Below are positions 34,395 through 62,263 of a DNA stretch of 64,000 nt, one piece after another. The DNA is from Cytobacillus firmus (GTDB lineage: Bacteria > Bacillota > Bacilli > Bacillales > Cytobacillaceae): the NCBI RefSeq assembly GCF_023657595.1, contig NZ_CP098323.1:2442001-2506000 (forward strand). Reading direction: 5' to 3'. Numbering within the stretch: the stretch's first letter is position 1; every line of letters starts with the position of its first letter. The notes below the pieces were generated by a model that had not been told where the DNA came from, did not search any database, and saw only the letters and a list, made by a program, of their open reading frames with translations. Position numbers and translations under genes: made by a program.

Positions 34395-34415
34395 TTAGAA
34401 CATCTCCTATTCTAT

Positions 34416-35927: not shown

Positions 35928-35958
35928 TGTGTTTCACCTCTTTTATTAGAATTGGCTA

Positions 35959-36468: not shown

Positions 36469-36531
36469 CTTTTACCCCCCTGACTTTTATAAAATCATCG
36501 AGAGAAAGAATTCTCCCGATGACTTGTTATA

Positions 36532-37521: not shown

Positions 37522-37630
37522 TTATTCTCCGTCCTTTTTTATTAGTAGGAAACAATGGTAGTTCCTCAATAAATGTCTTACGCCGCCCTTATGACTTGAT
37601 GCACCTCACAGAAAGTAAAGGGTTGCTTTT

Positions 37631-38452: not shown

Positions 38453-38470
38453 TATTTCTCAACCTTTCTC

Positions 38471-39691
38471 TTAATTTTTCTTCAATAAATTACTTTCTTC
38501 CAAAGCTTTCACCGCACCTGATTCTGAAAGCTTTGCAATATATTCCTGATCGTAGCCCAGGTTTTTCAGCACGGCCGCGGTATCCTGTCCGAAAAGCGGA
38601 GAGGCAGTTCTTACTTTACCTGGTGTTTTAGAGAATTTAGTTGGTATGCCGATCATTTTCATTTTTCCAATAACAGGATGCTCAACTTCTTCGATCATCC
38701 CTCTTGCCTGATAGTGTGGGTCCTGCACAGCTTCCGCAAAATTATTGATTGGCCCGGCAGGAACTCCTGCTTTTTCGCAGCGATCAATCCAAAACTTTGT
38801 TTCGTGAAGCATTAATACATCTTCAATATCTTCTTCGAGTTCAATAACATGCTTATTTCTTAATAAGTTTGTTTCATATCGCGGATCAGTAATCCATTCA
38901 GGCTTTTCGATAACTTCAGTGCAAAACCTTTCCCATGTTCTTTGATTTGCGCATCCGAGCATCATATAACCTGATTTTGTTTTAACAGCCTGATAGGGAG
39001 CGGAAACTCTATGGCGCCAGCCAGTTGCCTGCGGAATCGTCCCTTCTGCAAAATAGGCACCTGCTTCCCATGTAAACCAAGGCAGTCCAATTTCTGCAAG
39101 AGCGATATCCAAATGCTGTCCATCACCTGTTTTCATTTTATGAATATAAGCAGCAAGAATGGAGTAAGCAGCTGTGATGCCTGCACCAATATCATAAACT
39201 GCAATGCCTGATTTCATTGGCCTCATCCCTTTTTCCCCTGTCATGCTCATTAAGCCTGTCATTCCCTGGGCAACAAGATCGAAACCGCCTTTATGAGAAT
39301 ATGGACCAGTCTGTCCATAGCCTGATATTGAGCAATAGACAAGACCAGGATTGATTTTCTTTAAGCTTTCATAATCGATCCCGAGCGATTTAGTCACCCC
39401 GGGACGGTAGTTTTCTACAACTACATCCGCTTCCTTTGCGAGCTTATAGAAAATCTCCTTGCCTTCTTCATTTTTAAGATTAAGGGCAATGCTTTGTTTG
39501 TTTCGGTTAATTTGAAAGAAACAAGTGGATTCCCCATTCACATATGGTCCCATTTGCCGGGAGTCATCACCGCCGTTGACTTTTTCAACTTTCATTACAT
39601 CTGCGCCTAAATCAGCTAAAACCATCGTACAATATGGCCCAGCCATTATTTGAGAAGCATCAAGGACTTTCATTCCTTGTAAAGGTCCCAT
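38471..39691 (-). CDS. Class III CoA-transferase (CaiB/BaiF family)
   Basis: A 406-residue CoA-transferase from the ATG at 39691 (MGPLQGMKVLDASQIMAGPYCTMVLADLGADVMKVEK). A longer frame adds 16 residues with no ribosome binding site. Motifs AGPYC, NKQSIALNLKNEEGK and SISGYGQTGPYSHKGGFDLVAQG are present. The catalytic Asp is likely in AVYDIGAGITAAYSILAAY. First gene of a CoA-transferase/crotonase/TctCBA/gamma-CA operon, behind a GntR gene. The two CoA-transferases of this window are not adjacent copies and seem to belong to separate pathways. Confidence 0.88.
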   Translation of the reverse strand: MGPLQGMKVLDASQIMAGPYCTMVLADLGADVMKVEKVNGGDDSRQMGPYVNGESTCFFQINRNKQSIALNLKNEEGKEIFYKLAKEADVVVENYRPGVTKSLGIDYESLKKINPGLVYCSISGYGQTGPYSHKGGFDLVAQGMTGLMSMTGEKGMRPMKSGIAVYDIGAGITAAYSILAAYIHKMKTGDGQHLDIALAEIGLPWFTWEAGAYFAEGTIPQATGWRHRVSAPYQAVKTKSGYMMLGCANQRTWERFCTEVIEKPEWITDPRYETNLLRNKHVIELEEDIEDVLMLHETKFWIDRCEKAGVPAGPINNFAEAVQDPHYQARGMIEEVEHPVIGKMKMIGIPTKFSKTPGKVRTASPLFGQDTAAVLKNLGYDQEYIAKLSESGAVKALEESNLLKKN

Positions 39692-39782
39692 TTCAAACAC
39701 CCCATCTAAAATTTGTGTGTCAGAAGCGAGCCCGATCATACCGGCAGTTGTTCATTTCTATACAATTTTTATCTTTATATGG

Positions 39783-39857
39783 TATAATTAAGGTCGATTT
39801 ATTTATTAAGGGTGGAACATTTCTATTTTGGCGAGTGGAGATGTTCCCCTTTTTTTT
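39783..39857 (+). ncRNA. Possible short RNA between gntR and CoA-transferase genes
   Basis: On the plus strand an extended -10 (TGGTATAAT, ending 39788) is followed about 25 bases later by a hairpin with arms GGAACAT (39814-39820) and ATGTTCC (39841-39847) and then TTTTTTTT at 39850-39857. Both neighbours are on the minus strand, so this terminator serves neither. Together they would make an RNA of about 60 nt. It may alternatively be a stray structure. The -35 is weak. Confidence 0.35.
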
Positions 39858-40509
39858 ATTCACGAATCATATTGGTTCCACGTTCCAAATCATTCCGAAG
39901 ATGATTTTCCACGTTTTGTATAACCGCTGCCTCGTCGCGAGCTTTTAGAGCATTAAGGATTTGGCGATGTTCCTTAAGGATCTCTCTGTTATGCTCATTA
40001 TTTTTCAGGATATTGGCCCGGTAAAGCAATAGAAATGAACGTACCTGCTGAAGCAAGTGTAATGCCCGTTTATTCGGACTGGCTTCCAAAAGCCAATCAT
40101 GGAATTGTGCATTAAGCTCTAATAATTGCAGAAGATTTCCCTCTTTAAATGCGCTCTCTGCTTTCAGGAGTACCTTCTCAATCTCCTCCAATTCCTCATT
40201 TGCGACCGTTTTCAAAATTAGGCCCATGATTTTGGGCTCCAGCATCAGCCGGCATTCGTATAAATCCTTAAAATCAGTTTCTTCCAGCTTGACGACACTT
40301 AGCCCCAGATGATCCTGGACCAGTAACCCCTCAATTTGCAGCTGGCGCAGAGCTTCTCTTAACGGGGTCCGGCTGATGTTATACTTCTCTGCTAACTGTG
40401 AAACATTGACTTTCTCTCCTGGTTTCAATTCACCTGCCAGGATTGAACTTTTGATAATGTCATATATTTGCTGATAAAGCGGCTGTGAAAATTGCAGGCT
40501 TTGCACCAT
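39856..40509 (-). CDS. GntR-family regulator, FCD subfamily
   Basis: A 217-residue regulator from the ATG at 40509, with AGGAGG nine bases before it. A longer frame reaches 40644 but adds sequence without a ribosome binding site. The winged-helix domain (KYNISRTPLREALRQLQIEGLL near 43-64) precedes a helical FCD domain (ECRLMLEPKIMGLILKT, HDWLLEASPNKRALHL, LKEHRQILNALKARDEAAV). It lies 165 bases upstream of the CoA-transferase and probably controls it in response to the acid substrate. A strong promoter with an inverted repeat at the start point suggests autorepression. Confidence 0.9.
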   Translation of the reverse strand: MVQSLQFSQPLYQQIYDIIKSSILAGELKPGEKVNVSQLAEKYNISRTPLREALRQLQIEGLLVQDHLGLSVVKLEETDFKDLYECRLMLEPKIMGLILKTVANEELEEIEKVLLKAESAFKEGNLLQLLELNAQFHDWLLEASPNKRALHLLQQVRSFLLLYRANILKNNEHNREILKEHRQILNALKARDEAAVIQNVENHLRNDLERGTNMIRE

Positions 40510-40566
40510 AATTCTTTTCCTCCTTTCTAACTCCGTAAATATCACAACGGGGTTGAATGCTGAATG

Positions 40567-40623
40567 CTGTATCCAGTATACAGTGTCTATGTTGATAATA
40601 ATTAATATTCTGAAAAGTGTCAA
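40567..40623 (-). promoter_or_regulatory. gntR promoter with downstream operator
   Basis: Minus-strand TTGACA (40618-40623) and TATTAT (40595-40600) are 17 bases apart, a strong sigma-A promoter. An inverted repeat CTGTAT-N5-ATACAG spans 40567-40583, just after the -10 and over the start point, so a bound regulator would block transcription. Confidence 0.65.
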
Positions 40624-40709
40624 TATTTTAAATAAATTTTTCACAGTTATGTAAAACTAGTCAAAATTCGACACAATGCCGTTCAGCCTAAGCATGTAAA
40701 TTCCAATAA

Positions 40710-40746
40710 AAATAGACAGAAAGGCAAAATTTCCTGCCTTTCTGCT
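40710..40746 (-). terminator. Terminator of the orphan tctC gene
   Basis: CAGAAAGGCA and TGCCTTTCTG arms around an 8-nt loop, followed by TCTATTTTTATT on the minus strand, 8 bases after the stop. Confidence 0.85.
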
Positions 40747-40753
40747 TTTATGA

Positions 40754-41749
40754 TTACTTCATATCTTTTAAAAGAGTACCGTAAGTATCAATCAGATTTT
40801 CAAATTCAGCATTATAGTCCTCCGCATTTAACCAGCCATCACGCAGATGCAAGTAACTTGCTTTTTCATATTCTTTATAACCTGCCTGGTCTTTTGCCTC
40901 TTTAAGCGCATTTTCCAGCACCTCTATTATTTCAGGAGGCGTATCCGCATGAACCATGAATCCCCTTCCCTGGCCATCCGTTACATCGATTCCCATCTCA
41001 GTTGAAATTGGAACATCTTCAAAACCTTCCACCTTTTCTTCGGTAAATGCAATAAGCATCTTGATATCTCCGCTCTCCAGCTGGGCAATGGAAGGTCCCG
41101 GCTCCTCTGCAATTACATCAATATGTCCACCGAGAAGGGCTGCTGTCATTTCCCCGGAACCTTCAAAAGAGATATAATTGAATTTGGTTCCAGTTGCTTT
41201 TTCAAATTGTTTGATCACCAGTTCATCAAAGCCTGCAGAACCTGTACCGCCAATCGTTATTTCTCCAGGCTTTTCTTTCGCCTGCGCAATTAAGTCTTCG
41301 ATGTCTTTAAACTTCCCGTCGCTTTTAACTTGAAGCGTCATGGTGTCATTTTGAACCCTGCCAACCGCAGTTAATTTGCTCAAGTCATTTTTTTCAGCAC
41401 CTGCCGCAATATTTACCGGGTGATTGGATGTAGCAGACCATATTGTGTAGCCATCAGCCGGCTGTCTTGCTACATGGTCAGCAGAGTTGATCCCAGATGC
41501 TCCAGGCATGTTCACAACATTAATATTCACGCCTAGTATGTCTTTAAGCTCTTTGGCTATGGCTCTTGCAAAATTATCACTGCCTCCGCCTGCACCAAAT
41601 CCTACAACAATTTCAATTTGCCTTTCAGGATAATTACTGCCGCTTTTCTTTTCTTCCGAGCTTGCTTCTTGAGGTGAAGAACTACATGCCTGCAAAATGA
41701 ATACTAATGCAATTACAAGAGACAAAAACGAAAACCTCTTTAATTTCAT
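40754..41749 (-). CDS. Second TctC solute-binding lipoprotein
   Basis: A 331-residue receptor very like the TctC at 36532-37521, with lipobox LQAC (Cys near 22), the block YPERQIEIVVGFGAGGGSDNFARAIAKELKDILGVNINVVNMPGASG and HLRDGWLNAEDY. It has no TctA or TctB of its own and could share the nearby TctAB. A sigma-54 promoter about 170 bases upstream, of the same type as that of the aminotransferase, ties it to the glycolate/glyoxylate regulon. It may feed a different ligand into the same carrier. Confidence 0.88.
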   Translation of the reverse strand: MKLKRFSFLSLVIALVFILQACSSSPQEASSEEKKSGSNYPERQIEIVVGFGAGGGSDNFARAIAKELKDILGVNINVVNMPGASGINSADHVARQPADGYTIWSATSNHPVNIAAGAEKNDLSKLTAVGRVQNDTMTLQVKSDGKFKDIEDLIAQAKEKPGEITIGGTGSAGFDELVIKQFEKATGTKFNYISFEGSGEMTAALLGGHIDVIAEEPGPSIAQLESGDIKMLIAFTEEKVEGFEDVPISTEMGIDVTDGQGRGFMVHADTPPEIIEVLENALKEAKDQAGYKEYEKASYLHLRDGWLNAEDYNAEFENLIDTYGTLLKDMK

Positions 41750-41918: not shown

Positions 41919-41933
41919 TGCAATTTTTGTGCC
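41919..41933 (-). promoter_or_regulatory. Sigma-54 promoter upstream of orphan tctC
   Basis: GGCACAAAAATTGCA on the minus strand matches the -24/-12 consensus (TGGCAC-N5-TTGCW) with exact 12-bp GG-to-GC spacing. Start point would be near 41908, giving a leader of about 160 bases. The stretch 41750-42124 otherwise holds no gene. Confidence 0.75.
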
Positions 41934-42077
41934 GAATGGCTAAAAATGCACTAAGAAATTGTGAAATTTTCTCTTTAAACCAATTGAATGTAAGCCTTTT
42001 CAAAGAAACTCGTACATACATTGTTTTATTTGGTTTGGAACACCATTACATTTTGAATAGTGGTTCATTTGTTTTTA

Positions 42078-42125
42078 GTTCTATTTTGAAACAAAATATC
42101 CATCTATCCCGTTCCATTTTGAAAC
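42078..42125 (-). promoter_or_regulatory. Paired upstream activator sites
   Basis: GTTTCAAAATGGAAC (42111-42125) and GTTTCAAAATAGAAC (42078-42092) are two copies of GTTYC-N5-GRAAC, 33 bp apart (three helical turns) and 150-200 bases upstream of the sigma-54 promoter. The first one overlaps the glcF stop codon. They are likely binding sites of the sigma-54 activator encoded at 44948-46846. Confidence 0.65.
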
Positions 42126-43480
42126 TATTTATTTGCAGCTTCAGCTTCTGCCCTTTCAATGGAATCCATCAGGTAGTCAACCACATGTTTTGTTTCAATC
42201 TCTTCTTCCATGCCTTCCCGGTAAACACCAAGTTTCATTTGAAGATAGCACCCTGGATTGGCTGTAATTAGCACAGCTGATTCAGTTTCTTTCACCTTCT
42301 TCATTTTTTTATCCAATATTTCATTAGCAAGCTTCGGCTGCAATAAATTATAAATACCGGCAGAACCGCAGCAATATTTTTTCTCAGGAAGCTCTACATA
42401 TTCCGAGTTCGGAATTTGTTTAACCAATTTCGCAGGTGCATCCTTAACTTTCATCACATATTGCAGATGGCAGGAAGGCTGATAGGTTACTCTTTCTCCT
42501 CTTCCTGACACGGCAGGCATTTCACCTTTTTCATAAATGATTTCACTGATATCTTTTATTTTGGCGGAGAAGGTTTTTGCCCGTTCCAGCCAATCTGGAT
42601 CATCACGAAACAAGTCTGCATATTCAGCAAGTGCAGCACCGCAGCCGCCCGCATTTGTAATAATATAGTCCACAGCTGCTTCTTCAAAAGCCTGTATATT
42701 CGCCTTTGCCAATTCGATGGTTTTGTCTTTTTTCCCGCTATGATGATGCAGGGCTCCGCAGCACATCTGAGCTCTGGGAGTGACAACATCAAACCCGGCC
42801 TTTGACAGCAGTTTAATAGAATTATCATTGGTTTCTCTGAACATAACATCCATGATGCATCCATGGAAAAAGGCTACACGTCCTTTGGCCTTCTTTTCTT
42901 CATATGCGCTTGGTGTAAACTCCTGATGATATTTACGCTTTGAAGGAGGCAAAATCGCAGGTGTAATTCGTTCCATCTGGCTCATCTGTTCAGGGAAAAA
43001 TTTTAATATGCCCAGCCCCCTTGTAAGGGATTGAAGTCCGCTTTTTTGATAAAACCAAAGTAGATTGCCCACCGAATTAAGCCTTTTTTGATTCGCGAGA
43101 ATATGATCAAAAAAGTAGTCCTTAAAAGTGCGTGCCGTATAGGCTTGTTTTTTAATATCCGTTTGAACAGGCGGCGCAGCCTGCACAGGTGTTTCAACAG
43201 CTGCTGCTATTCGCTCCTTGGCGAGCATGACAATATCCGGGACCTGAACATCTATAGGGCATGCATCCACACATGCAGAGCAAAGCAGGCATCGATCCAG
43301 CTGATCTTTAATCTCCTGGTTTACAGGAATATCTCCTTCAAGCAGACTCCTTGCCATTAATACTCTTCCCCTTGGGCCGTCAGCTTCCCTTCCCGTGATA
43401 TTTAATGTTGGGCATACATTGCGGCAGGCTCCGCATCGCACACACGTTCGCATAGATTCTTCCGCGGTAAGAAGTTTCAA
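42125..43480 (-). CDS. glcF: Glycolate oxidase iron-sulfur subunit
   Basis: A 451-residue GlcF/YsfD-type protein. Two ferredoxin-type [4Fe-4S] sites at the N-terminus (CVRCGACRNVCP at 13-24 and CLLCSACVDACP near 63-74) and two CCG heterodisulfide-type domains (CCGALHHHSGK and CCGSAGIYN) follow. With GlcD it oxidises glycolate to glyoxylate, passing electrons to the respiratory chain. It is 18 bases after glcD and ends the regulator-glcD-glcF operon. No GlcE is present, as in B. subtilis YsfCD. Confidence 0.92.
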   Translation of the reverse strand: MKLLTAEESMRTCVRCGACRNVCPTLNITGREADGPRGRVLMARSLLEGDIPVNQEIKDQLDRCLLCSACVDACPIDVQVPDIVMLAKERIAAAVETPVQAAPPVQTDIKKQAYTARTFKDYFFDHILANQKRLNSVGNLLWFYQKSGLQSLTRGLGILKFFPEQMSQMERITPAILPPSKRKYHQEFTPSAYEEKKAKGRVAFFHGCIMDVMFRETNDNSIKLLSKAGFDVVTPRAQMCCGALHHHSGKKDKTIELAKANIQAFEEAAVDYIITNAGGCGAALAEYADLFRDDPDWLERAKTFSAKIKDISEIIYEKGEMPAVSGRGERVTYQPSCHLQYVMKVKDAPAKLVKQIPNSEYVELPEKKYCCGSAGIYNLLQPKLANEILDKKMKKVKETESAVLITANPGCYLQMKLGVYREGMEEEIETKHVVDYLMDSIERAEAEAANK

Positions 43481-43498: not shown

Positions 43499-44935
43499 CT
43501 AGTTTGGCAGTGCCATTTTGCCTGGATTCAATATATTGTTTGGATCCAGAGTCCGTTTAATCGCCCTCATTACTTCCATTGCGGGTCCGTGTTCAACATC
43601 CATATACTTTGCCCTGACAATTCCTACTCCATGTTCCGCTGTCGTTGTTCCTTCCATTTTGATTGCAAGCTCATGGATATCGTCGATCATTTTTTGCACA
43701 TTTTCCATTTCAATTTGATTATTCATATTAACTACTGGACCTGTGTGCATATTCCCATCGCCCACATGGCCATATATTCCGCAGATGATGTCATATCGAT
43801 CAGCAATATTATGAATTTCCCGCAAAGTTTCCGGAAGCCTTGAAATTGGCACACATATATCTTCTCCGCCATATACCCTGAACCCGCCATGTTTTAATAG
43901 GCCGACAGCGGCACCAACAAGCTTTCTGGCCTGCCAGAGCTTTTCGCATTCCTCCGGTTCATCGCTAAACTTTATATAATTTGTATACTTTTCAACCACA
44001 GTTTTTAATCGGTTAACTTGTGAGGTAACCTCCTCCTTGGCTCCATCCACTTCAAACACGAGAATAGCTTCATTATCCAGCGGAAGACGAAGCTCGGGCT
44101 TCATCATATTGACAGCTTTTGTACAGTTAAAGTCCATAATTTCGATGGCAGATGGCTGCAGGCCAGAAGAGAAAACGGCATTAACAGCCTCACCGGCTTC
44201 TTCCAGCCGTTCAAATGAACATAAAACAATCCCTCTTGTAACTGGCAGAGGCAATAATTTCAGGCGAAGACGGGTGATAATACCAAGGGTTCCCTCAGAT
44301 CCTATCATTAAATGAGCGAGATCATAGCCAGAAACCGACTTAAGTGCTTTCGATTTAGCTCCGCCAGTAACAATTACTTCACCAGTAGGGAGCACAACTT
44401 CCATGCCGAGTACATAATGGCGGGTGACTCCATATTTGACTGCCCTTAGACCGCTCGAATTGTTCGATACCATTCCTCCAACTGTGCACATATTTGCGCT
44501 GCCAGGATCAGGCGGAAACCTCAATCCATAAGGTTTTAAAGCCTCATTTAGATCATTTTGGATTACACCTGGCTCTATAATGACCTGCATATTCCGATGG
44601 TCAATATCCAGGATTCGGTTCATTTTTGATAAATCCATCATGATGCCGCCTTTAACCGGAACAGCTCCGCCTGTCTGGCCAGTTGCTGCTCCTCTTGGAT
44701 ATAAAGGGATGCTGTATTTATTGGCAAGCTTAACACAAGAACTTACCTCTTCAGTGGATAAGGCAATCACAGCCACTTGAGGCTGTTTTGGACTAATCTG
44801 TGTTTCAAAGGAAGCATCATAAGAATATGTCATCATGTCGGTGTTATTGGTTAAAATCCGGTCTTCTCCGAAGATATCCCTTAATTGAGATATGATGTTT
44901 TCATCCAACGGAGGGGGCGCCTTTGTTTCATTCAT
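43499..44935 (-). CDS. glcD: Glycolate oxidase FAD-linked subunit
   Basis: A 478-residue FAD-dependent 2-hydroxyacid dehydrogenase (GlcD/YsfC type). The FAD_binding_4 domain shows PLYPRGAATGQTGGAVPVKGGIMMDLSKMN near 75-105 and GSANMCTVGGMVSNNSSGLRAVKYGVTRHYV near 140-170. The C-terminal oxidase domain ends with GHVGDGNMHTG and TTAEHGVGIVRAKYM, carrying substrate-binding histidines. D-lactate dehydrogenases look similar, but the pairing with GlcF and a nearby glyoxylate aminotransferase favours glycolate. It is 12 bases after the activator gene. Confidence 0.92.
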   Translation of the reverse strand: MNETKAPPPLDENIISQLRDIFGEDRILTNNTDMMTYSYDASFETQISPKQPQVAVIALSTEEVSSCVKLANKYSIPLYPRGAATGQTGGAVPVKGGIMMDLSKMNRILDIDHRNMQVIIEPGVIQNDLNEALKPYGLRFPPDPGSANMCTVGGMVSNNSSGLRAVKYGVTRHYVLGMEVVLPTGEVIVTGGAKSKALKSVSGYDLAHLMIGSEGTLGIITRLRLKLLPLPVTRGIVLCSFERLEEAGEAVNAVFSSGLQPSAIEIMDFNCTKAVNMMKPELRLPLDNEAILVFEVDGAKEEVTSQVNRLKTVVEKYTNYIKFSDEPEECEKLWQARKLVGAAVGLLKHGGFRVYGGEDICVPISRLPETLREIHNIADRYDIICGIYGHVGDGNMHTGPVVNMNNQIEMENVQKMIDDIHELAIKMEGTTTAEHGVGIVRAKYMDVEHGPAMEVMRAIKRTLDPNNILNPGKMALPN

Positions 44936-44947: not shown

Positions 44948-46846
44948 TCACATACTATTAATTTTTCGCCATAGGGTCGTCCTGCCGATCCCAAGTATCT
45001 TTGCCGCTTCTGTTTTATTGCCGTTTACCTGTTTGAGCACATTCAAAATATATTCTTTCTCAAGGTGATAAAGCTTTGTTTCATCACCTTCATCATCTTT
45101 TTCATGATGTGCCTTGAGTTCTTGCATACCTAGAAAGTCTTTTCCCCCAGCAGCTAAAACAGTATCAGAATCAATCACCTTATCGGGAGAAAGAATCATA
45201 GCTCTTTCAACAATGTTTCTGAGCTGACGGATATTTCCTGGCCAATGATAGTTTTGCAGGATTTTCATCGCATCAGCAGTAAATCCTCTAATATTTCTCC
45301 GGATTCCAGGCTCCAGTTCTTCTATAAAAAAATTGCATAACAGCGGTATATCAGCAATCCGTTCACGCAATGACGGGATAGGAATATCAAGGATATTAAG
45401 GCGATAGTACAAATCGGCCCGGAAACGTCCTTCTTCTACCATCTTTTCGAAATCCCGGTTTGAAGCAGCGATCACACGTATATTAATAGGGATGACCCTT
45501 TCATCTCCGAGCCGCATCACCTCTCCCTCCTGAAGGACCCTCAGAAGCTGAGCCTGAAGAGATTCAGCCAGTTCGCCGATTTCATCCAGGAAAATGGTCC
45601 CCTGGTGTGCTAATTCGAACAAACCCGTTTTCCCGCCCTTTTTAGCCCCGGTGAAGGCTCCTTCAACATACCCGAATAATTCGCTTTCCAGTAAGTTTTC
45701 AGGGATAGCTGCACAGTTCACTGCAACAAATGGCCCTTCCGACCGCTTGCTGAAGCTGTGGATCAAATGGGCAAACACCTCTTTTCCCACACCCGTTTCC
45801 CCTGTAAGGAGAATGGTCGAATCCACTTGTGAGTACTTCTTCACCTTTTGAATCGCTTTTTTGTACATGTCACTCTCACCGACGATATTATGTAAACTAT
45901 ATTTCGTTACATGGCCCCGGTGAAGCAGCTTTTTGCGGATCTCCTGTTCCTGCTGCTGAATTCTATTAATCTCCTGAAATGTACAGACTGCTCCAAGCAC
46001 CTTTTGCTCGTGCCGAATGGGAATTCGGTTTGCGACTACTTTCACCCCATTTTCATCCTGGATGCGGTTCAGCTCTTCCTTGCCAGTCGAAAGAACTTTG
46101 CTCATTCGCGAATGCACGAGAATATCATCTATGGACTTGCCGATTACTGAATCATAGGGAAGGTTTAGTATGCTGTAGACGGAAGGATTGCAAACTGTGA
46201 TCACCCCTTTTTCATCCACTGCTATCACACCATCTGCAATAAAATCAAGAATTGCCTGAAGTTCCTTTGTTCTTTTTATTTCTGAGCGCCTCACATTGAT
46301 TAGGCTTCTTGCCTCGTTGATTGCCTGAATGACCGATTCCACACCGGACGTTAATATGACTGTTCTAATCGTTTCTTTTTTTACTTTGTTGGTAAAAATG
46401 CTTTTGCCTATCAGCACATCTATTTGTTTTTTGCAGAGTGACTCCACAGCTGCTTCAGCTTCCTCCGGCATTGATACACAGTGCTTTTCAATCGATAAGC
46501 CCAGCACAGATTCAATTGTTTCGATTCCCTGTAAGATTTCTTCGTTGTCTGCAATCCCAATTTTTTCTCCGAGCTTCTGTGCTTCCTTGATTGTTCGAAG
46601 CAAGTCATATCCAGTTATGGGAATCTGTACAACAGGTAAATTGATGTCAGATTCTAACAGCTTTAATCCCAAGGTCCCTCTGCTAATGATTACTTCTGTA
46701 CCGTTTTTTTCAAATTCCTTTGCCGCTTCGACCGCATTCCGAAAACTCACTTTCTTTACTGTAACTTCTTCTCCTGTTTTTTTCGCGGCTTCCCTTGAAA
46801 CCTGTATCAGCCCGTCAATTGGAGTCAGAATTGCAATTTCAGACAT
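44948..46846 (-). CDS. Sigma-54 activator with PrpR-type sensor and PAS domain
   Basis: A 632-residue enhancer-binding protein. Residues 1-170 match the PrpR_N/propionate activator sensor. A PAS domain follows at about 195-300 (LDFIADGVIAVDEKGVITVCNPSV). The AAA+ domain has Walker A LTGETGVGKE near 351, the sigma-54 contact ELFGYVEGAFTGAKKGG, Walker B TIFLDEIGE and the arginine-finger region. A Fis-type helix-turn-helix ends the protein (NGNKTEAAKILGIGRTTLWRKINSM). ATG at 46846 has GAGGTG five bases upstream. It is co-transcribed with glcD-glcF. It should act with RpoN (SigL) on the two -24/-12 promoters found nearby. Confidence 0.92.
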   Translation of the reverse strand: MSEIAILTPIDGLIQVSREAAKKTGEEVTVKKVSFRNAVEAAKEFEKNGTEVIISRGTLGLKLLESDINLPVVQIPITGYDLLRTIKEAQKLGEKIGIADNEEILQGIETIESVLGLSIEKHCVSMPEEAEAAVESLCKKQIDVLIGKSIFTNKVKKETIRTVILTSGVESVIQAINEARSLINVRRSEIKRTKELQAILDFIADGVIAVDEKGVITVCNPSVYSILNLPYDSVIGKSIDDILVHSRMSKVLSTGKEELNRIQDENGVKVVANRIPIRHEQKVLGAVCTFQEINRIQQQEQEIRKKLLHRGHVTKYSLHNIVGESDMYKKAIQKVKKYSQVDSTILLTGETGVGKEVFAHLIHSFSKRSEGPFVAVNCAAIPENLLESELFGYVEGAFTGAKKGGKTGLFELAHQGTIFLDEIGELAESLQAQLLRVLQEGEVMRLGDERVIPINIRVIAASNRDFEKMVEEGRFRADLYYRLNILDIPIPSLRERIADIPLLCNFFIEELEPGIRRNIRGFTADAMKILQNYHWPGNIRQLRNIVERAMILSPDKVIDSDTVLAAGGKDFLGMQELKAHHEKDDEGDETKLYHLEKEYILNVLKQVNGNKTEAAKILGIGRTTLWRKINSM

Positions 46847-46964
46847 CACATCACCTCATATAGCTTTTTCTCTTGGACAATTTTAATTTTATTTTAAATT
46901 AATCTTAACAAATGCCAAGAGAAATTTCGGTGAATTTTCATAATCATCAGTTTTTTGGTCCTGG

Positions 46965-47648
46965 TTACAATTTTATTTTAATCGCGCTTTCAACCTGGCC
47001 CAATGGCCCTTCTGCCGAGATTAACCCAACTGCAGCGCCGGACAGCTGAAAAAAGTATGATAGATTCTTTCGATCCTGAATATTTAACTGATCTAGAACC
47101 ACTCCTCCTAAAATCACTGCATTGCCTATTAAGCTGTCATTAAATGAATCGAGCAGATAACTGCAGAGTGTTTCCCCGGTATATTGCTTACTTAATGGTC
47201 CGTTAATTTCAATATACATGGTGTCGGGTATAACCAGGCTAAATGATGAAGTTGCCAGACAATCCGCCATCGCAGCTGGTGAAATCACAATTGCGATGGC
47301 TCCGTTTCCTCCCATGCACTTAATTTGCTGGTCAATCCCCGCAAGTACTGTACCATTCTGCTTGAAGCCTTCTTTTCGAAAATAATCTTCAGGCTCACAA
47401 TCTATTAACTTGATGCCTTTTTCTTTACAGAATTTAAGGGTGGTTTCCTCTTCTGTTCCCGTAACTGAAAAGAAGGTTTTGGCTGGATTTGTCACTTTTT
47501 CATAGCCTTGGTTCCAATATGCTTTAAAGACAGAATGTGAACTTTTCCCGCTGATGAGTTTCCAATCCGGTGTCAATTCAATTTTATCTCCAGGAGAAAC
47601 TGAAGGAAGATTTGCCACTTCGGCGATTCGCTTTTCAATAATATTCAC
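46965..47648 (-). CDS. Truncated, catalytically stripped aconitase-family protein
   Basis: A 227-residue protein aligning by eye with domains 1-3 of LeuC/homoaconitase. GDKIELTPDWKLISGKSSHSVFKAYWNQG and YEKVTNPAK match the family N-terminus, and GNGAIAIVISPAAMADCLATSSFSLVIPDTMYIEINGPL matches the segment around [21 protein letters not shown] in LeuC. The GDSHTST block reads GIDQQIKCM, the substrate-base histidine region is changed, and the C-terminal half with all [4Fe-4S] cysteines is missing. It cannot be a normal hydratase. The reading frame is intact and has a family-like end, so it is not an obvious pseudogene. Lies 30 bases after the aminotransferase. Function unknown. Confidence 0.65.
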   Translation of the reverse strand: MNIIEKRIAEVANLPSVSPGDKIELTPDWKLISGKSSHSVFKAYWNQGYEKVTNPAKTFFSVTGTEEETTLKFCKEKGIKLIDCEPEDYFRKEGFKQNGTVLAGIDQQIKCMGGNGAIAIVISPAAMADCLATSSFSLVIPDTMYIEINGPLSKQYTGETLCSYLLDSFNDSLIGNAVILGGVVLDQLNIQDRKNLSYFFQLSGAAVGLISAEGPLGQVESAIKIKL

Positions 47649-47678: not shown

Positions 47679-48845
47679 TTAACAGTTCGGATTTTCGAGC
47701 CAATGCCGCTGTGCCGCAGAAACTCCAGCACCTAGTTCCACTTCGTATCCGGTCTTCTTTAAAGCAAGCTCCATCGCAGCAAACATTTTCAGCATGTCAG
47801 CAGCATCTGTATATCCCATATGTCCCAGGCGCAGAATCTGATTCTTCACCTTTCCGAGACCGCCACCCAATGCGATATGAAATTCTTCCCGCATCATCCT
47901 TCTGAATTCATCGGCATTTTTTAATTTTACAGCTGTCAGGGTTGGGCTGGCTGCCGAATCATCCACCAGCAATTCTAGACCTAATGCCCGCACTCCAGCT
48001 CTAGTCATATCCCGAAGTGCAGCATGCCTTTTGAATTCAGCTTCTATTCCTCCGCTTTTTTCTATCATATTGCAGGCTTCAAGAAGCCCGCAAACAAGTG
48101 ATATATTCGGTGTATAAGGTGTGCCGGCCCCTGATTCCAATCCTTTTTTATAGAGCTTAAGGTCAAAGTAAAAGGATGGGCACTGATGCTTATTCACAGT
48201 GTTCCAGGCTTTTTCACTTAATGTAATTAACGCAAGGCCAGGCGGCAGCATTAATGCTTTCTGACCTCCGGTTGCCACAATATCAATGCCCCATTCGTCC
48301 ATGTATAGAGGCGTGCCGACAATCGAGCTGACCGCATCAACGAGGAATATGGCATCTGATTCTTTTACAACTGCTGCAATCTCTTGAATGTTGTTGATTG
48401 CAGAGGTGGATGTTTCACAGTGTGTCGCAAAAACAGCTTTTGCCTCAGGATTTTCCTTCAATGCTTTTCTCACATCTTCAGGATCGACAATATTTCCCCA
48501 TTCAGCATCGACGCGGACGGTTTTGCAGCCGATATGGTCTGTAATTCCCTGAAGGTACTCACCAAAATAGCCGACTACACAAAGAATGATCGTATCGTTG
48601 GGACCAACCGTATTAATAATAGCTGTTTCAAGAGCGGATGCTCCGCTTGAGGTAAGTGGGATCACCAGGTTTTCAGTCTGGAATATCATTTTAGACTTTT
48701 CAGTCGTTTCCTGAAGTACATCCTGGAAGGCTGGATTCCGGTAATCCATCATGGGATGATCGAAACTCCTTAGCATGGCACGCTGTATTTCTTTTGGAAC
48801 CTGAACTGGTCCCGGCAATCTTAAATCCAATTTTTCTTCAAACAT
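47679..48845 (-). CDS. Class V aminotransferase, alanine-glyoxylate/serine-pyruvate type
   Basis: A 388-residue PLP enzyme of the AGXT/PucG group. LPGPVQVPKEIQRAMLRSFDHPMMDYRNPAF at the N-terminus is the family start. PLP-lysine is in VATGGQKALMLPPGLALI (near 205-222) and the aspartate that binds the PLP nitrogen is in FLVDAVSSIVGTPL. Beside glycolate oxidase it most likely aminates glyoxylate to glycine from alanine, serine or a ureide-pathway donor. First gene of its transcript, with a strong AAGGGGAGG site and a sigma-54 promoter 50 bases upstream. Confidence 0.88.
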   Translation of the reverse strand: MFEEKLDLRLPGPVQVPKEIQRAMLRSFDHPMMDYRNPAFQDVLQETTEKSKMIFQTENLVIPLTSSGASALETAIINTVGPNDTIILCVVGYFGEYLQGITDHIGCKTVRVDAEWGNIVDPEDVRKALKENPEAKAVFATHCETSTSAINNIQEIAAVVKESDAIFLVDAVSSIVGTPLYMDEWGIDIVATGGQKALMLPPGLALITLSEKAWNTVNKHQCPSFYFDLKLYKKGLESGAGTPYTPNISLVCGLLEACNMIEKSGGIEAEFKRHAALRDMTRAGVRALGLELLVDDSAASPTLTAVKLKNADEFRRMMREEFHIALGGGLGKVKNQILRLGHMGYTDAADMLKMFAAMELALKKTGYEVELGAGVSAAQRHWLENPNC

Positions 48846-48894: not shown

Positions 48895-48911
48895 TGCAAT
48901 TTTTGTGCCAA
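48895..48911 (-). promoter_or_regulatory. Sigma-54 promoter of the aminotransferase gene
   Basis: TTGGCACAAAAATTGCA on the minus strand is a perfect -24/-12 promoter. Its core, GGCACAAAAATTGCA, is identical to that upstream of the orphan tctC. Confidence 0.88.
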
Positions 48912-49434: not shown

Positions 49435-49632
49435 TTAAGAGATTTTTTTTAATTCATCCGTAAGGCGCATGAATTCTTTTTGGTTCCGGCTAGTGAGAGC
49501 TTCATCAATTTTTTCGCGAAGCTTTTCAATTCGATATTCCTTAAGAGCTTGATTTAGGACTTGTTCTGCTAACAATGACACGTTTTCCTCAGACTGTTGC
49601 GGCGAGTTAAGTAGACGTTTTTCCATTTGCAA
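49435..49632 (-). CDS. IDEAL-domain protein
   Basis: A 65-residue protein carrying the Bacillus IDEAL domain, with LLAEQVLNQALKEYRIEKLREKIDEALTSRNQKEFMRLTDEL filling residues 20-61. The literal IDEAL is in KIDEAL. IDEAL domains occur alone or fused to regulators such as ComK-related proteins and often bind adaptor or protease complexes. The function of this one is not known. Monocistronic with a good terminator. Confidence 0.85.
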   Translation of the reverse strand: MQMEKRLLNSPQQSEENVSLLAEQVLNQALKEYRIEKLREKIDEALTSRNQKEFMRLTDELKKIS

Positions 49633-49817: not shown

Positions 49818-50768
49818 TTATGCTTTGGCCGTTTCAAGTATGCTCATTACATTTTGTACAGACTTAACAGATTGATCGAGTGCTTCCTTCTCATCGGCAG
49901 TCAATGGAATTTCAATGACACTTTCTATTCCATTTCCGCCCAGAATTGTTGGAACTCCCAAGTAGATGTTACTGTATCCATACTCACCTTCCAAATAGGC
50001 AATTGAAGGAAGGATGCGTTTTTTATCTTTCAGAATCGCTTCAGCCATCTCAACCATTGAAGCTGCAGGAGCATAATAGGCACTTCCCTGACCAAGCAGA
50101 TTGACAATTTCTCCTCCGCCTTTTCTGGTTCTTTTCACAATCGCTTCGATTCGGTCTGCAGGGAGAATTTTCTCCAGAGGAATACCGCCAGCATATGAAT
50201 ATCTAACGAGAGGAACCATGTCATCTCCATGACCACCCAGGACAAAACCTGAAATATCTTCAATCGAAACTCCCAGCTCTTGCGCCACAAACGTATTGAA
50301 TCGGGCTGTATCCAAAACTCCTGATTGGCCGATTACCCTATTTTTCGGAAAACCGGTCGTTTTGTAGCAAACATAGGTCATGGCATCAACAGGATTGCTT
50401 AATACAATAATATAGCTTGCCGGGGCGTATGTTTTTATATTTTGAGAAACCTCAATCATTATCTTCTCATTTACAGCAACCAGATCATCCCGGCTCATTC
50501 CCGGTTTTCTTGGCATTCCTGCTGTAATCAAAACTAAATCTGCATCTTGAATGTCTTCATAGCTTGAAGTTCCGGTTATGCTGGCATTAAAGCGCTGAAC
50601 CGGTCCAGCTTCCAGCATATCAAGGGCCTTGCCTTTTGTTGGGTTTGTCTGTGAAGGTATGTCAACTAAGATTATGTCTCCCAATTCTTTTTGGGCGAGC
50701 ATCAGTGCTGCCGTCGCACCAGTAAAGCCTGACCCGATAACGGCAATCTTTCTTCTCTTAAAAGTCAT
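49818..50768 (-). CDS. mdh: Malate dehydrogenase (LDH-like, MDH3 type)
   Basis: A 316-residue NAD-dependent malate dehydrogenase. Rossmann motif [15 protein letters not shown] at 13-27, the malate-specific [13 protein letters not shown] (substrate arginines) near 83-95, NPVDAMTY and the catalytic histidine in GGHGDDMVP near 177-185. The residues fit malate rather than lactate. Here it is the last gene of the eut operon, 36 bases after a BMC shell gene. No encapsulation helix is seen at either end. The chromosome probably has the usual citZ-icd-mdh copy elsewhere, so this looks like a second, locus-specific copy. Confidence 0.93.
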
Positions 50769-50804
50769 CGCTGTTCCTCCATTTCATCATCCAGTTGGAG
50801 TACA

Positions 50805-51191
50805 TTATTGATCTTCACGGTTATCTTGCTCCGCAGCTGGTATCTGTTTCTTTTTGCTTCCTCCCTTTTTTACGGGGGGTGGTTCAGGAACTGCCTCTTG
50901 TCTCATTTCCTTTGGTTTCCTGTCATCCAACAAAGCTTTCTTGATTTCTTCATCAGGATGAGGTATAACATGCGCTGACACAAGTTCACCCACTCTGGCA
51001 GCTGCTTCCTTTCCTGCATCCACAGCAGCCTGAACAGCACTTACATCACCTTGAACCAAAACCGTTACTAGGGCGGCGTCCACTTTTTCCTGCTTCACCA
51101 GCATAACATCGGCAGCTTTCAGCATCGCATCTGCTGCTTCAATGGACCCAATCAGCCCTCTTGTTTCAATCATGCCGAGTGCTCTTGCCAT
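50805..51191 (-). CDS. BMC-H shell protein with basic C-terminal tail
   Basis: A 128-residue hexameric microcompartment shell protein of EutM/PduA type. The BMC fold fills residues 1-90 (ALGMIETRGLIGSIEAADAMLKAADVMLV, then VTVLVQGDVSAVQAAVDAG and HVIPHPDEEI). It then has a 38-residue Pro/Lys-rich tail (ending in VKKGGSKKKQIPAAEQDNRED) not found in the compact EutM. The tail could face the lumen or cytosol and bind cargo or nucleic acid. It lies 1 base after eutN. Confidence 0.92.
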   Translation of the reverse strand: MARALGMIETRGLIGSIEAADAMLKAADVMLVKQEKVDAALVTVLVQGDVSAVQAAVDAGKEAAARVGELVSAHVIPHPDEEIKKALLDDRKPKEMRQEAVPEPPPVKKGGSKKKQIPAAEQDNREDQ

Positions 51192-51192
51192 A

Positions 51193-51465
51193 CTATTTCA
51201 CCTCTTTCTTTTCAACGTCAACAGAATCAATGATTCCGATAATCAATGCATCAATTGGCAATTTGAAATCCCCGGACATGTTTGAAGCCGAACTTCCACG
51301 TGTAACGAGAACCTGATCACCGACTCCCGCGCCAATTCGATCAACTGCAACGAATGATTTTTCTGCTGAAATTCCATGAGGCTCGACAACCAAAAATTTC
51401 AGGCCAGTTAAATTATCCTCTTTTCTTGTGGCCCATACATTGCCGATTACCGTTCCCATTTCCAT
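51193..51465 (-). CDS. eutN: EutN/CcmL-type pentameric vertex protein
   Basis: A 90-residue BMC-P protein that caps the vertices of the microcompartment shell. Family pattern MGTVIGNVWATRKEDNLTGLKFLVVEP, VAVDRIGAGVGDQVLVTRGSSA and DALIIGIIDSV. It overlaps the preceding gene by 19 bases and is followed by a BMC-H gene. Confidence 0.93.
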   Translation of the reverse strand: MEMGTVIGNVWATRKEDNLTGLKFLVVEPHGISAEKSFVAVDRIGAGVGDQVLVTRGSSASNMSGDFKLPIDALIIGIIDSVDVEKKEVK

Positions 51466-52121
51466 GTGCTTTCAGCCCCTTTTGTATCCATTACAACAAT
51501 GCTTTTTCCCAATTCGCGTGCAGCATCACGTGCCAAAGGTGTTATAATGGTCTCTTTATCTACCAGGATTTCATTCTTTTTGCATTCTTGAACATCTCTT
51601 TGAGTTATCAGCTTCTTTACGTCTGGCTGATCTGAACTGAAAGGCTTTGGCGCAGCAAAGTCGTCCAGACTGTTGATTTCAACCCCGAACTTTAACAGCT
51701 TTTCTTTATACTCCATTAAACTTAAAAAATACTCCCCATTTGTTTTTTTCTCTCCATTGAGGATTTTATAGAGATTTGTTTTCGGAATTAAGGTAACAGG
51801 GACATAATCAATAATACAGGCTGAGAGAAGCTCGCTTTCCGGTGTATCGCAAATGCCCAGTGCCCCTTTGACAAACAAGTCCTGGGAAGCACCAAGAAAA
51901 ATAACTTTCATAACAGTATGCAGCTGGGGATTTTCACTGGAGTCATAGGGAAGGATATTCCAATTCGCTTCTAACACTTCTAATAAAGCTGGGTCAATTC
52001 GATTCAAATCCCCTACAGCCAGCAGATTATGCTTCATTTTAGGATTGGGAGCTGATGTGGCACCCAATAGATTTTTCACAACTTCTTCTACAATTTGTTC
52101 AATCATATGCCTGTCAATCAT
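51447..52121 (-). CDS. Microcompartment-associated protein with EutQ-like tail
   Basis: A 224-residue protein, typical of firmicute eut operons and of unknown activity. Residues 5-18 (HMIEQIVEEVVKNLLG) form an amphipathic encapsulation helix. A Rossmann-like flavoprotein-type core follows (HNLLAVGDLNRIDPALLEVLEANWNILPYDSS, GICDTPESELLSACIIDYVPVTLIP). The last 50 residues, KKLITQRDVQECKK and EILVDKETIITPLARDAARELG, match the N-terminal start of EutQ. Overlaps pduL by 4 bases. It may be an organising or cofactor protein inside the shell. Confidence 0.6.
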   Translation of the reverse strand: MIDRHMIEQIVEEVVKNLLGATSAPNPKMKHNLLAVGDLNRIDPALLEVLEANWNILPYDSSENPQLHTVMKVIFLGASQDLFVKGALGICDTPESELLSACIIDYVPVTLIPKTNLYKILNGEKKTNGEYFLSLMEYKEKLLKFGVEINSLDDFAAPKPFSSDQPDVKKLITQRDVQECKKNEILVDKETIITPLARDAARELGKSIVVMDTKGAESTWKWER

Positions 52122-52771
52122 AAGCTATCCTCTTGCCTTACCAGCCTGCCGGCTGTTTTCCCGGCAATCAGCCCTGCATTGGCTTCATCAGTATCAATAT
52201 GCATTTCAAGCCTGTACCGGGGAGAGATTCTAATTAACACATTTCCAAAGGATATTGGACGTTCTCCCGCTGCCTCAACTTTGACGCATTCCCCATTTTT
52301 CACTCCGAAAGCTTTAGCATCTTCTGGAGTCATATGAATGTGTGCCTGTGCAATAATTAAACCTTCTTTTTTGTATAGGCTCCCCTTTGGCCCTATCAGA
52401 GTAACGGGAGAAGAACCTTCTATATTCCCGGATTCGCGAAGCGGAGGCTTCAACCCGAGCTTGATCGAATCTGTACGGCTGACTTCTACCTGGGTTATAT
52501 GGCGCGCAGGACCTAGAATGCGCACTTTTTCAATGCTTCCTCTAGGTCCTGCGATGGTAATGATTTCATTAGCAGCAAATTGGCCAGGCTGAGATAATTC
52601 AGCTTTTTTGGTAAGCTGATAGCCTGTTCCAAAAAGAACTTCCAGATCACTTTGACTTAAGTGACAATGCCGGGCAGAGACAGCCATTGGAATTGAATGT
52701 TTTTTTACTGAGGACCCCTTAAGCCTTAAGACTATTTCCTCGACAATCGAATGAATGGCTTGCTCGTTCAT
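52118..52771 (-). CDS. pduL: Phosphate acyltransferase, PduL type
   Basis: A 217-residue PduL (EutD-like) enzyme, converting acetyl-CoA to acetyl phosphate and freeing CoA inside the microcompartment. Residues 1-20 (NEQAIHSIVEEIVLRLKG) are the encapsulation helix. The two PduL zinc-binding barrels show IPMAVSARHCHLSQSDLEVLFG near 28-49 and IIAQAHIHMTPEDAKAFGVKNGE near 142-164, and the final LEMHIDTDEANAG is intact. It lies 30 bases after a BMC-H gene. Confidence 0.93.
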   Translation of the reverse strand: MNEQAIHSIVEEIVLRLKGSSVKKHSIPMAVSARHCHLSQSDLEVLFGTGYQLTKKAELSQPGQFAANEIITIAGPRGSIEKVRILGPARHITQVEVSRTDSIKLGLKPPLRESGNIEGSSPVTLIGPKGSLYKKEGLIIAQAHIHMTPEDAKAFGVKNGECVKVEAAGERPISFGNVLIRISPRYRLEMHIDTDEANAGLIAGKTAGRLVRQEDSL

Positions 52772-52801
52772 GGTTTATGCTCCTAACGTAGTATTCTTGT
52801 A

Positions 52802-53095
52802 TTAAAGCTCAACATCAATTTTTGGAAGAATGCTTTCCAATTCGTTATGAGGACGTGGAATGACATGAACAGATTTCAATTCTCCAACACGCTGTGCTGC
52901 TGCAGCACCCGCATCAGTTGCTGCTTTAACTGCACCTACATCTCCCCTGACAAGAACCGTTACAATTCCGCCTCCAACATGCACCTTACCAACTAAATGA
53001 ACATTCGCAGCCTTTACCATGGCATCAGCTGCTTCCACTGAAGCAACCAAACCTTTAGTTTCAATCATTCCTAATGCAGTTAATTCTCTAGCCAT
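52802..53095 (-). CDS. eutM: BMC-H shell protein, EutM type
   Basis: A compact 97-residue hexameric shell protein ([57 protein letters not shown], ending [17 protein letters not shown]). It is the canonical EutM form, unlike the tailed paralogue at 50805. The central pore region GGG is present. Confidence 0.94.
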
Positions 53096-53111
53096 TTTTA
53101 TTTCCTCCTAA

Positions 53112-54650
53112 TTAGTTAGTTTGATATTTTTTCATTACTTGATTGACCATTTCAGCAATCATGCTTGCATCCACATTGCCATCAGGCGATACTTGCTGAA
53201 GCACCTGGCTGACAATATGATCAACATCCCAGCTGCCGGCTTGTTTTTTTTCATCTATAGAAGAGGATGCTGCCGGTTTTGGGATGGTGACTTCTTTCGT
53301 TCCATAAGCCATTCTTTTAATATTGATCAGGTGGCGTGCTGTTACATTATCAGAGGTAATGTTGCCGCCGAATGAACCGCATCCCAGAGTCAGAGAAGGC
53401 ATCAAACCGGTTGTCGCCCCCACGGCCCCAATGGATGAAAGCGTGTTAACCATCATTCTCGAAACAGGCATTTCCAAGGCAAAATCCCTGGCCACTGCGT
53501 CGTCATTTGTATGGATGGAAAGGCTATGTCCTCTTCCGCCCAAATTGAGCAGCTGCAGGCATATGTCTTTTGCCTCCTGCAAGCTTTCCGCAGTATAAAG
53601 TGCAAAGACCGGAGATAATTTTTCAATAGAAAATGGTATGTCTTTGCCTATCTCAGTTTCTTCAGCAATTAATACCCTCGTATCTTCAGGGACTTGAATC
53701 CCCGCCATGGATGCGATTTTAACAGCACTTTGACCGACGATATCCGGATTCAGCTTTCCAAGTGAAGGTGAAATGACTTTTTCCAACGCAGCTTTTTCAT
53801 GCTTATTTAATAGATAAGCCCCATTATTCCTGAGCTCTCTCATAGTCATTTCTTTGATGTTGCGATCAACGACGATTGATTGTTCAGTAGCGCAAATCGT
53901 TCCATTATCAAAAGATTTACTGTCAATAATCATCTTCACCGATTGGGCCACTTTAGCAGTCTTTTCAATATAGCAAGGCACATTTCCGGGTCCTACTCCA
54001 TATGCTGGCTTGCCTGAACTGTACGCCGCCCTGACCAGTCCGCCGCCACCTGTTGCTAATATGAGATTGATATCACGATGCTTCATTAAATCATTTGTTG
54101 CACCCATCGACGGCGTTGAAATCCATCCAATCAACCCTGCAGGTGCACCAGCTTGTATGGCTGCATCATTGACGATTTTCAGCGCTTCAACTGTGCATTT
54201 TACAGCCCTTGGATGAGGGCTCACAACAATGGCATTTCTTGTTTTTAGAGCAATCAGTGCTTTAAATATGGCTGTTGAAGTAGGGTTGGTTGTTGGAATT
54301 ATGCCTGCAATGACACCGTAAGGATAGGCAATGTCCGTTACTTTATTTACACGGTCTTCACTTATAATGCCCACTGTCTTTTCATCTTTGATTGATTCAT
54401 AGACAGCCTTGGAGCCGACTTCGTTTTTTATTTTTTTGTGCTCGACTATGCCCATACCTGTTTCCTCTACCGCCATCCGGGCAAGATAAAGTGACTTTGC
54501 ATAAGCAGCATCAGCGGCTTTTTTGACGATTTCGTCGACCTGCTCCTGTGTAAAGGCCATATACTTTAACTGCGCTTCTTTGGCCAGCTTTACAGCATTC
54601 CGCATTTCCTGCATGGATTGAAGATCATGATCAAATTGCAAGATTCCCAC
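53112..54650 (-). CDS. eutE: Acetylating acetaldehyde dehydrogenase
   Basis: A 512-residue CoA-acylating aldehyde dehydrogenase, turning the acetaldehyde released by EutBC into acetyl-CoA with NAD+. Catalytic cysteine in SFDNGTICATEQ (near 265), nucleotide-loop ATGGGGLVRAAYSSGKP near 206. The last 45 residues (HIVSQVLQQVSPDGNVDASMIAEMVNQVMKKY) carry helix segments typical of encapsulation peptides at a linker. Related to the AdhE/EutE group. Substrate acetaldehyde is inferred from locus. Confidence 0.93.
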   Translation of the reverse strand: MGILQFDHDLQSMQEMRNAVKLAKEAQLKYMAFTQEQVDEIVKKAADAAYAKSLYLARMAVEETGMGIVEHKKIKNEVGSKAVYESIKDEKTVGIISEDRVNKVTDIAYPYGVIAGIIPTTNPTSTAIFKALIALKTRNAIVVSPHPRAVKCTVEALKIVNDAAIQAGAPAGLIGWISTPSMGATNDLMKHRDINLILATGGGGLVRAAYSSGKPAYGVGPGNVPCYIEKTAKVAQSVKMIIDSKSFDNGTICATEQSIVVDRNIKEMTMRELRNNGAYLLNKHEKAALEKVISPSLGKLNPDIVGQSAVKIASMAGIQVPEDTRVLIAEETEIGKDIPFSIEKLSPVFALYTAESLQEAKDICLQLLNLGGRGHSLSIHTNDDAVARDFALEMPVSRMMVNTLSSIGAVGATTGLMPSLTLGCGSFGGNITSDNVTARHLINIKRMAYGTKEVTIPKPAASSSIDEKKQAGSWDVDHIVSQVLQQVSPDGNVDASMIAEMVNQVMKKYQTN

Positions 54651-54676
54651 ACTCCTTTCAGGATATTTTGAAAGAC

Positions 54677-55330
54677 TTAGTATTTAATTGGGTTCTGAGA
54701 AATTTCCAAAATGGCATCCCGGAAAGCATCAGCAGCTGCCTGGCAGGCTGATTGAGAGCCGCTCAAAAGGCCTCCGCCAAAATTGGTTTCCGAAGGCGGA
54801 CCAAAGAATTTAACCATTTCCACATCCGCTGCCTTTAGAGCAGCGTCAAGTCCATAAACGGCTTCCAATGGAGGGGCTATCAGATAGGCAATAGGCTCTC
54901 CGATATTGATGCCTGCTTCTTTTGACAAATAGGAGCCTGTTCTGGAAACAACATGTGCGTAAATGGCATGAGATTTTTCCTGATCAAGTGCTTCAAAAAA
55001 AGCGTCTGATTCTGCAGTCTGGAAAACAGCTTCCATGCCGCTTTTAACTTCATCTGGAGACGGTCCGGCGATGATACCAATCATTTCACCAGACAGCGGT
55101 CCGGAAGCATGAGCGGCACCGGCATAAAAAGACCTCGCATAAACGACTTCCACATCTGCTCTTTTAGTAGCTTCATCAAGTGCTGTATATCCCACATCAT
55201 CGATGGTAGAGGTGAATATCGCCAAACTTCTATGGTGAGGCTTCAGATCAAATTGCTTTGCAAGATCCGGATCCACATTAGGGATGACCCTGACAGCCAC
55301 TATATCAGCGTGAATGCGTTCTAATCCCAT
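54677..55330 (-). CDS. eutL: EutL trimeric shell protein
   Basis: A 217-residue BMC-T tandem-domain shell protein, typical of eut compartments and able to gate a larger pore. Family segments: RVIPNVDPDLAKQFDLKPHHRSLAIFTSTIDDVGYTALDEATKRADVEVVYARSFYAGAAHASGPLSGEMIGIIAGPSPDEV and LLSGSQSACQAAADAF. It lies 13 bases after eutC. Confidence 0.95.
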   Translation of the reverse strand: MGLERIHADIVAVRVIPNVDPDLAKQFDLKPHHRSLAIFTSTIDDVGYTALDEATKRADVEVVYARSFYAGAAHASGPLSGEMIGIIAGPSPDEVKSGMEAVFQTAESDAFFEALDQEKSHAIYAHVVSRTGSYLSKEAGINIGEPIAYLIAPPLEAVYGLDAALKAADVEMVKFFGPPSETNFGGGLLSGSQSACQAAADAFRDAILEISQNPIKY

Positions 55331-55342
55331 TCCTTTCGCCTC

Positions 55343-56359: not shown

Positions 56360-56371
56360 TATTTTCAACTC

Positions 56372-57736: not shown

Positions 57737-57753
57737 TTACAATCCCTCCTTCC

Positions 57754-59202: not shown

Positions 59203-59244
59203 GATCCCCGCCTTACTAAAACAAATTATCTGATTTGCAGGTAA

Positions 59245-59306: not shown

Positions 59307-59364
59307 TGATTTATTCTTTTGTATAATTAGAATATATTCTATTATCTTAATTTTGTAAAGGGTT

Positions 59365-59865: not shown

Positions 59866-59878
59866 TCTATACAGCTCC

Positions 59879-60220: not shown

Positions 60221-60247
60221 TGCTTTGGCCTCCCAGGTGACTGCTGC

Positions 60248-62261: not shown

Positions 62262-62263
62262 GG

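Follow-up and report, generated by a model that had tools for sequence, protein, structure and literature searches.

Aconitases are known to moonlight, as do the RNA-binding IRP1 and bacterial aconitases, while staying complete proteins. Among relatives of these enzymes, the archaeal-type large subunits of 3-isopropylmalate dehydratase/homoaconitase (TIGR01343 and TIGR02086; MJ0499 and MJ1003) share their domain 1/2 fold with nearly the whole of the protein described here, which differs from them in being without domain 3, the three cluster cysteines, the catalytic residues and a nearby small-subunit gene. The next-best full-length relatives of its profile are presumed dimethylmaleate hydratases (DmdA) of nicotinate fermentation clusters; these differ from it in being complete hydratases that possess the GADSH motif and the Fe-S cysteines and have a small subunit of the LeuD type. 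Aconitase X (AcnX) is a member of the superfamily with altered domain content (PMC8184944). Our literature search returned nothing on point for inactive or truncated aconitases, nor for an operon such as the one described below.

The gene under study lies in a 64,000-nucleotide stretch of the Cytobacillus firmus chromosome, hereafter termed the window, and encodes a protein of 227 amino acids for which we use the working name ACNX. As the initial annotation had stated, its reading frame (46965-47648, minus strand, GTG start) is intact and begins 30 bases after an aminotransferase gene, counted from the stop codon of the class-V aminotransferase gene (AGT; 47679-48845, minus strand); a gap of 115 bases separates it from the gene of a PrpR-type activator downstream. 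The HMM search proposed by that annotation returned significant matches, yet under the curated family cut-offs, to Pfam Aconitase (E 3.1e-6, below the gathering score) and to NCBIfam TIGR01343 hacA_fam (E 2.9e-10, residues 3-214 of 227 aligning with model positions 2-227 of 412), and the profile of the ACNX family matches PDB 4nqy at E 8e-21. An AlphaFold model built from orthologues aligned with distant full-length relatives (pLDDT 91.9, pTM 0.87) was superposed on residues 3-269 of MJ0499, an isopropylmalate isomerase large subunit, with Z 22.5, rmsd 2.3 and 25% identity over 225 residues, whereas the next unrelated structures scored Z below 5; the suggested comparison with LeuC thus ended in a predicted aconitase fold. 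A distant member of the family, from genome G196, was modelled with the same order of elements (pLDDT 91.5). Since the alignments held full-length aconitases, which favours an aconitase fold, these two models are not wholly independent of the homology claim. The resemblance to aconitase domains 1-3 that had been noticed by eye is therefore real homology but reaches less far than proposed: because the model matches MJ0499 residues 3-269, ACNX is predicted to consist of domains 1 and 2 only and to end where domain 3 starts. Judged by profile similarity and by the predicted domain 1/2 fold, ACNX belongs to the aconitase superfamily by descent. A family-specific new C-terminal motif, SPxGPxGQVExxIKxK, closes domain 2, and the polar residues D28, E147, D171 and K224 are invariant across the family. 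Similarity to AcnX, an active Fe-S dehydratase unlike ACNX, is remote and far weaker than that to the hacA family; we ruled out that ACNX is an Aconitase X on the basis of its Z score (7.6, as against 22.5 for MJ0499) and of the absence of the AcnX family from its Pfam matches up to E 1.

The fate of the active site was followed with a residue table in mitochondrial aconitase numbering. The loop carrying D100 and H101 is deleted, and the positions of H147 (E, S or P in the family), S166 (Q or E), H167 (Q or D) and N258 (Y) are all replaced and mostly variable. E262 is replaced by L in the copies of the genus and retained as E in the G196 copy; D165 corresponds to a variable position and was not counted as lost. 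The cluster cysteines (358, 421 and 424) and two arginines, R447 and R452, are missing along with domain 3. Three observations of the initial annotation were borne out by this comparison, namely the replacement of GDSHTST by GIDQQIKCM, the loss of the DH catalytic block, which corresponds to the deleted loop, and the lack of the C-terminal half with the [4Fe-4S] cysteines, ACNX stopping at the domain 2/3 boundary. Nor is a small subunit (swivel domain 4) encoded alongside, the AGT-ACNX-PrpR-GlcD-GlcF operon being devoid of a LeuD-type gene. As nearly all catalytic residues of domains 1 and 2, the cluster cysteines and domain 3 are absent and the operon holds no small-subunit gene, an aconitase-type hydratase reaction would not be expected of ACNX. 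Sensing of a glyoxylate-derived acid in the old cleft, which had been suggested, is not specially supported, because the ligand-binding residues of that half are gone.

The operon opens with AGT (Pfam Aminotran_5, E 2.5e-27), whose best NCBIfam match is BhcA, at 267 bits against a cut-off of 650, and whose PDB relatives are serine-glyoxylate and alanine-glyoxylate aminotransferases. The sigma-54 promoter previously attributed to the operon was confirmed as an exact site, TGGCACAAAAATTGCA (48895-48910, minus strand), 49 bases upstream of the AGT start; it is the sole exact match to the sigma-54 pattern within the window. All loci of the genus examined, as well as genome G116, have a site at the equivalent place, and G196 has one near the start. 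Directly downstream of ACNX, on the same strand, follow the PrpR/PrdR-type activator with PrpR_N, PAS and sigma-54 activation domains (44948-46849; PrpR_N E 1.5e-41, Sigma54_activat E 2.7e-69; under both the PrdR and the PrpR equivalog cut-offs), a GlcD-type FAD 2-hydroxyacid dehydrogenase (43499-44935; TIGR00387, 403 bits against a cut-off of 568; nearest solved structure glycolate oxidase, 9qgz) and a GlcF-type iron-sulfur subunit recognised by Pfam and NCBIfam family matches (42125-43480). A second sigma-54-like site with one mismatch (41919-41934, minus strand) lies about 170 bases upstream of a TctC-type solute-binding protein gene (40754-41749, minus strand), and in genomes G019 and G002 its counterpart, about 174 bases before TctC, is an exact site; the TctC gene probably belongs to the same regulon as the AGT-ACNX operon. 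GlcD, GlcF and AGT all score under the curated NCBIfam equivalog cut-offs, and the operon probably burns small hydroxyacids. Glyoxylate or glycolate would be a plausible substrate given the nearest solved structures of GlcD and AGT, and the nickel-dependent LarA-family racemase encoded downstream in the same island, which passes its NCBIfam cut-off, is likewise compatible with a 2-hydroxyacid being racemised and oxidised.

Several neighbouring regions deserve mention in their own right. The downstream island (31583-41749) comprises the LarA-type racemase, a TctABC transporter, a CaiB CoA-transferase and an enoyl-CoA hydratase, and counterparts of the last three flank the AGT operon in G116. 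On the other side, a Eut cluster (49818-63769) carries EutABC, EutP, EutH, BMC shell genes and PduL and ends with a malate dehydrogenase gene, unusual among Eut genes; between this malate dehydrogenase gene and the sigma-54 promoter lies the gene of a 63-amino-acid IDEAL-domain protein (49435-49626, minus strand). A second LeuC/LeuD pair, separate from the other LeuC of the genome, is located at 8680-13704 together with a CaiB-type CoA-transferase, a GntR regulator and an HMG-CoA-lyase-like gene, and this region is possibly a catabolic hydroxyacid pathway.

ACNX was found in 12 of the 36 genomes (species) of the genus, and an AGT orthologue of 95-97% identity occurs in the same 12. The order AGT-ACNX-PrpR-GlcD-GlcF is constant across the genus. 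Ten of the 12 carriers hold intact copies of 225-227 amino acids with 55-71% identity to the query. One further short member, of 231 amino acids and 30% identity, is present in a different bacterial family (G196), where the same five genes stand in the same order without a Eut microcompartment and are followed by a TRAP transporter; a role tied to the adjoining ethanolamine microcompartment was ruled out by this arrangement. G196 apart, no short member was detected in the order, class and phylum samples (239, 399 and 398 genomes), so that the family appears narrow, comprising one genus plus one of the about 1,000 genomes to which the profile was applied. A search of plasmids likewise yielded no short member, its sole match (Halomarina) being a full-length large subunit accompanied by a small subunit, and a search of genome contigs for ACNX relatives recovered the copy of a sister species only. 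In G116 the operon reads AGT-PrpR-GlcD-GlcF, its first two genes standing about 22 bases apart, which makes ACNX an optional component of such operons. To the question raised earlier, whether ACNX always travels with the aminotransferase and the PrpR-type regulator, the answer is thus divided: the association is strict within the genus, but the two other genes also occur together without ACNX.

Purifying selection acts on ACNX and is weaker than on its neighbours. The median dN/dS is about 0.28 for ACNX as compared to 0.03 for AGT, 0.04 for GlcD and 0.07 for PrpR, the bootstrap intervals in five species pairs span 0.10-0.53 (all below 0.6), and ACNX evolves roughly 4-9 times faster than the neighbouring genes. 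In simulations, a neutral reading frame of this length stayed free of stop codons in about 0.3% of cases at 0.3 substitutions per site. The two remaining copies of the genus are broken, that of G011 by a frameshift of one base at a T run, that of G035 within a locus where five genes show breaks; the one-base difference at a T run and the number of broken genes in G035 resemble sequencing error, and both defects could be of this origin. Nonetheless, an operon without ACNX in G116, a copy with a single-base frameshift and a copy in a badly broken locus indicate that ACNX is dispensable in places. Another of the findings that the initial annotation had named as counting against it, that the homologues are simply N-terminal fragments of frameshifted LeuC genes, is not what we observed either: a frameshifted or truncated LeuC pseudogene is ruled out by the 115-base gap followed directly by PrpR, by the ten intact orthologues of the same length and by the dN/dS ratio, and the 30%-identical relative elsewhere also speaks against it.

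The best full-length matches of the ACNX family profile are proteins of Clostridia. The genes of one group cluster with those of a LeuD-type small subunit, a PrpF-family isomerase and a protein resembling B12-dependent mutases; judging from these neighbours, the group is presumably the DmdA of nicotinate fermentation. The other, nearer to ACNX and here named the GADGH clade (12 genomes; loci L053, L060-L062 and L133-L140), consists of full-length large subunits that carry GADGH instead of GADSH (S166 to G) and for which family models give no closer annotation than aconitase/3-isopropylmalate dehydratase large subunit-like. Like ACNX, they reside in PrpR-linked loci (a PrpR-type regulator within 20 kb in 11 of 12), no small-subunit gene being found in the fetched neighbourhoods of the 12 loci; unlike ACNX, they are of full length and have kept the cluster cysteines and most catalytic residues. 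Their neighbours usually include subunits of a 2-oxoacid:ferredoxin oxidoreductase together with a transporter of the MatC or GntP kind; in several loci GlcD/GlcF are present too. The nearest full-length relative of ACNX, from G819 (profile E 1.7e-37), shares its locus with PrpR, a GntG-type aldolase, a GntP permease and a BhcA-like aminotransferase. In a phylogenetic tree, LeuC and DmdA grouped together (88/93), apart from ACNX, the G819 protein and the GADGH clade; the exact position of ACNX in this tree is unsure owing to its long branch.

Taken together, these data are best explained if ACNX is a pseudoenzyme made of the first two large-subunit domains, free of a cluster and selected for a non-catalytic task in a sigma-54-controlled 2-hydroxyacid operon, a reading to which we assign a probability of about 0.62; ACNX would most likely be a helper or regulator rather than an enzyme. 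Homology, predicted fold, the loss of residues and cluster, the fixed gene slot, the strict co-occurrence with AGT in the genus, purifying selection, the new C-terminal motif and the lack of a separate domain 3 in the carriers all support it. That ACNX might instead be a slowly decaying relic, which has lost its function along with its C-terminal half and whose frame survives by chance or through polar constraints of the operon, would accord with its fast change relative to its neighbours, its narrow distribution, the broken copies in G011 and G035 and the G116 operon that does without it. We hold this to be improbable, as the dN/dS intervals lie well below 1 in all five pairs, 10 of the 12 species retain an intact frame, the domain boundary is clean and followed by a new conserved motif, a divergent copy is held in the same slot in another family (G196), and the G011 and G035 breaks look like sequencing error. 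Hardly more probable is the explanation favoured by the initial annotation, a sensor whose domain 1/2 cleft binds a hydroxyacid or oxoacid of the pathway and reports to the activator. ACNX does directly precede the PrpR_N/PAS activator gene, its relatives bind hydroxy-di- and tricarboxylates and four polar residues are invariant, but in this half the residues that contact the substrate have been lost and vary within the family, PrpR_N activators normally detect their ligand directly, and G116 possesses the activator without ACNX.

Catalytic alternatives appear less probable still. A new cluster-independent enzyme acting on an operon intermediate through a re-invented active site, suggested by the position of ACNX among enzyme genes and by some invariant cysteine, acidic and basic residues, is very unlikely, since ACNX changes far faster than the enzymes encoded next to it and its old cleft shows no conserved set of catalytic-type residues. 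We give the least credit to ACNX being half of a split aconitase that works with a large subunit or domain 3 from elsewhere, for example the second LeuC (9291-10718), even though the window holds this LeuC/LeuD pair at a distance of about 36 kb and the pair recurs in several carriers. A profile search of 11 carriers and G116 detected domain 3 only in frames of at least 419 amino acids and no stand-alone domain 3, G002 and G019 each showing a single match in an ordinary LeuC-sized frame elsewhere; moreover, the domain 1-2 catalytic residues that ACNX would have to supply are lost. A split enzyme with a separate domain 3, or with domain 3 supplied in trans, was rejected on this frame-length evidence as unlikely.

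Returning to the pseudoenzyme, its ancestor may have stood near the GADGH clade of partnerless full-length large subunits in PrpR-controlled hydroxyacid loci. The protein would then have been cut cleanly at the domain 2/3 boundary and the rest lost, the two-domain core staying on as a partner-binding protein, putatively co-transcribed with AGT and co-induced with the enzymes of the operon. Given this presumed co-transcription and the constant slot between AGT and the activator, ACNX might bind a product of its own operon and tune the activity of that partner, the mechanism that we favour, if tentatively; the PrpR-type activator is the leading candidate and the GlcD/GlcF dehydrogenase the next, both named from gene order. 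IRP1-type RNA contacts, for their part, lie largely in the domains missing from ACNX. It is doubtful, though conceivable, that ACNX typifies a new class of aconitase without enzymatic function, derived from a lineage of partnerless large subunits, reduced to two domains and free of the cluster, and devoted to co-regulating the PrpR-type sigma-54 activators of hydroxyacid catabolism.

The observation itself is real, selected and unusual. The analysis also reveals the GADGH clade as a widespread, apparently uncharacterised group in Clostridia, whose full-length large subunits are encoded in PrpR-controlled loci with no gene for a small subunit. If the pseudoenzyme reading is true, a stand-alone half-aconitase, stripped of cluster and active site, has been kept by selection in a fixed operon slot, which would mean that the aconitase core can be converted into a purely non-catalytic part.
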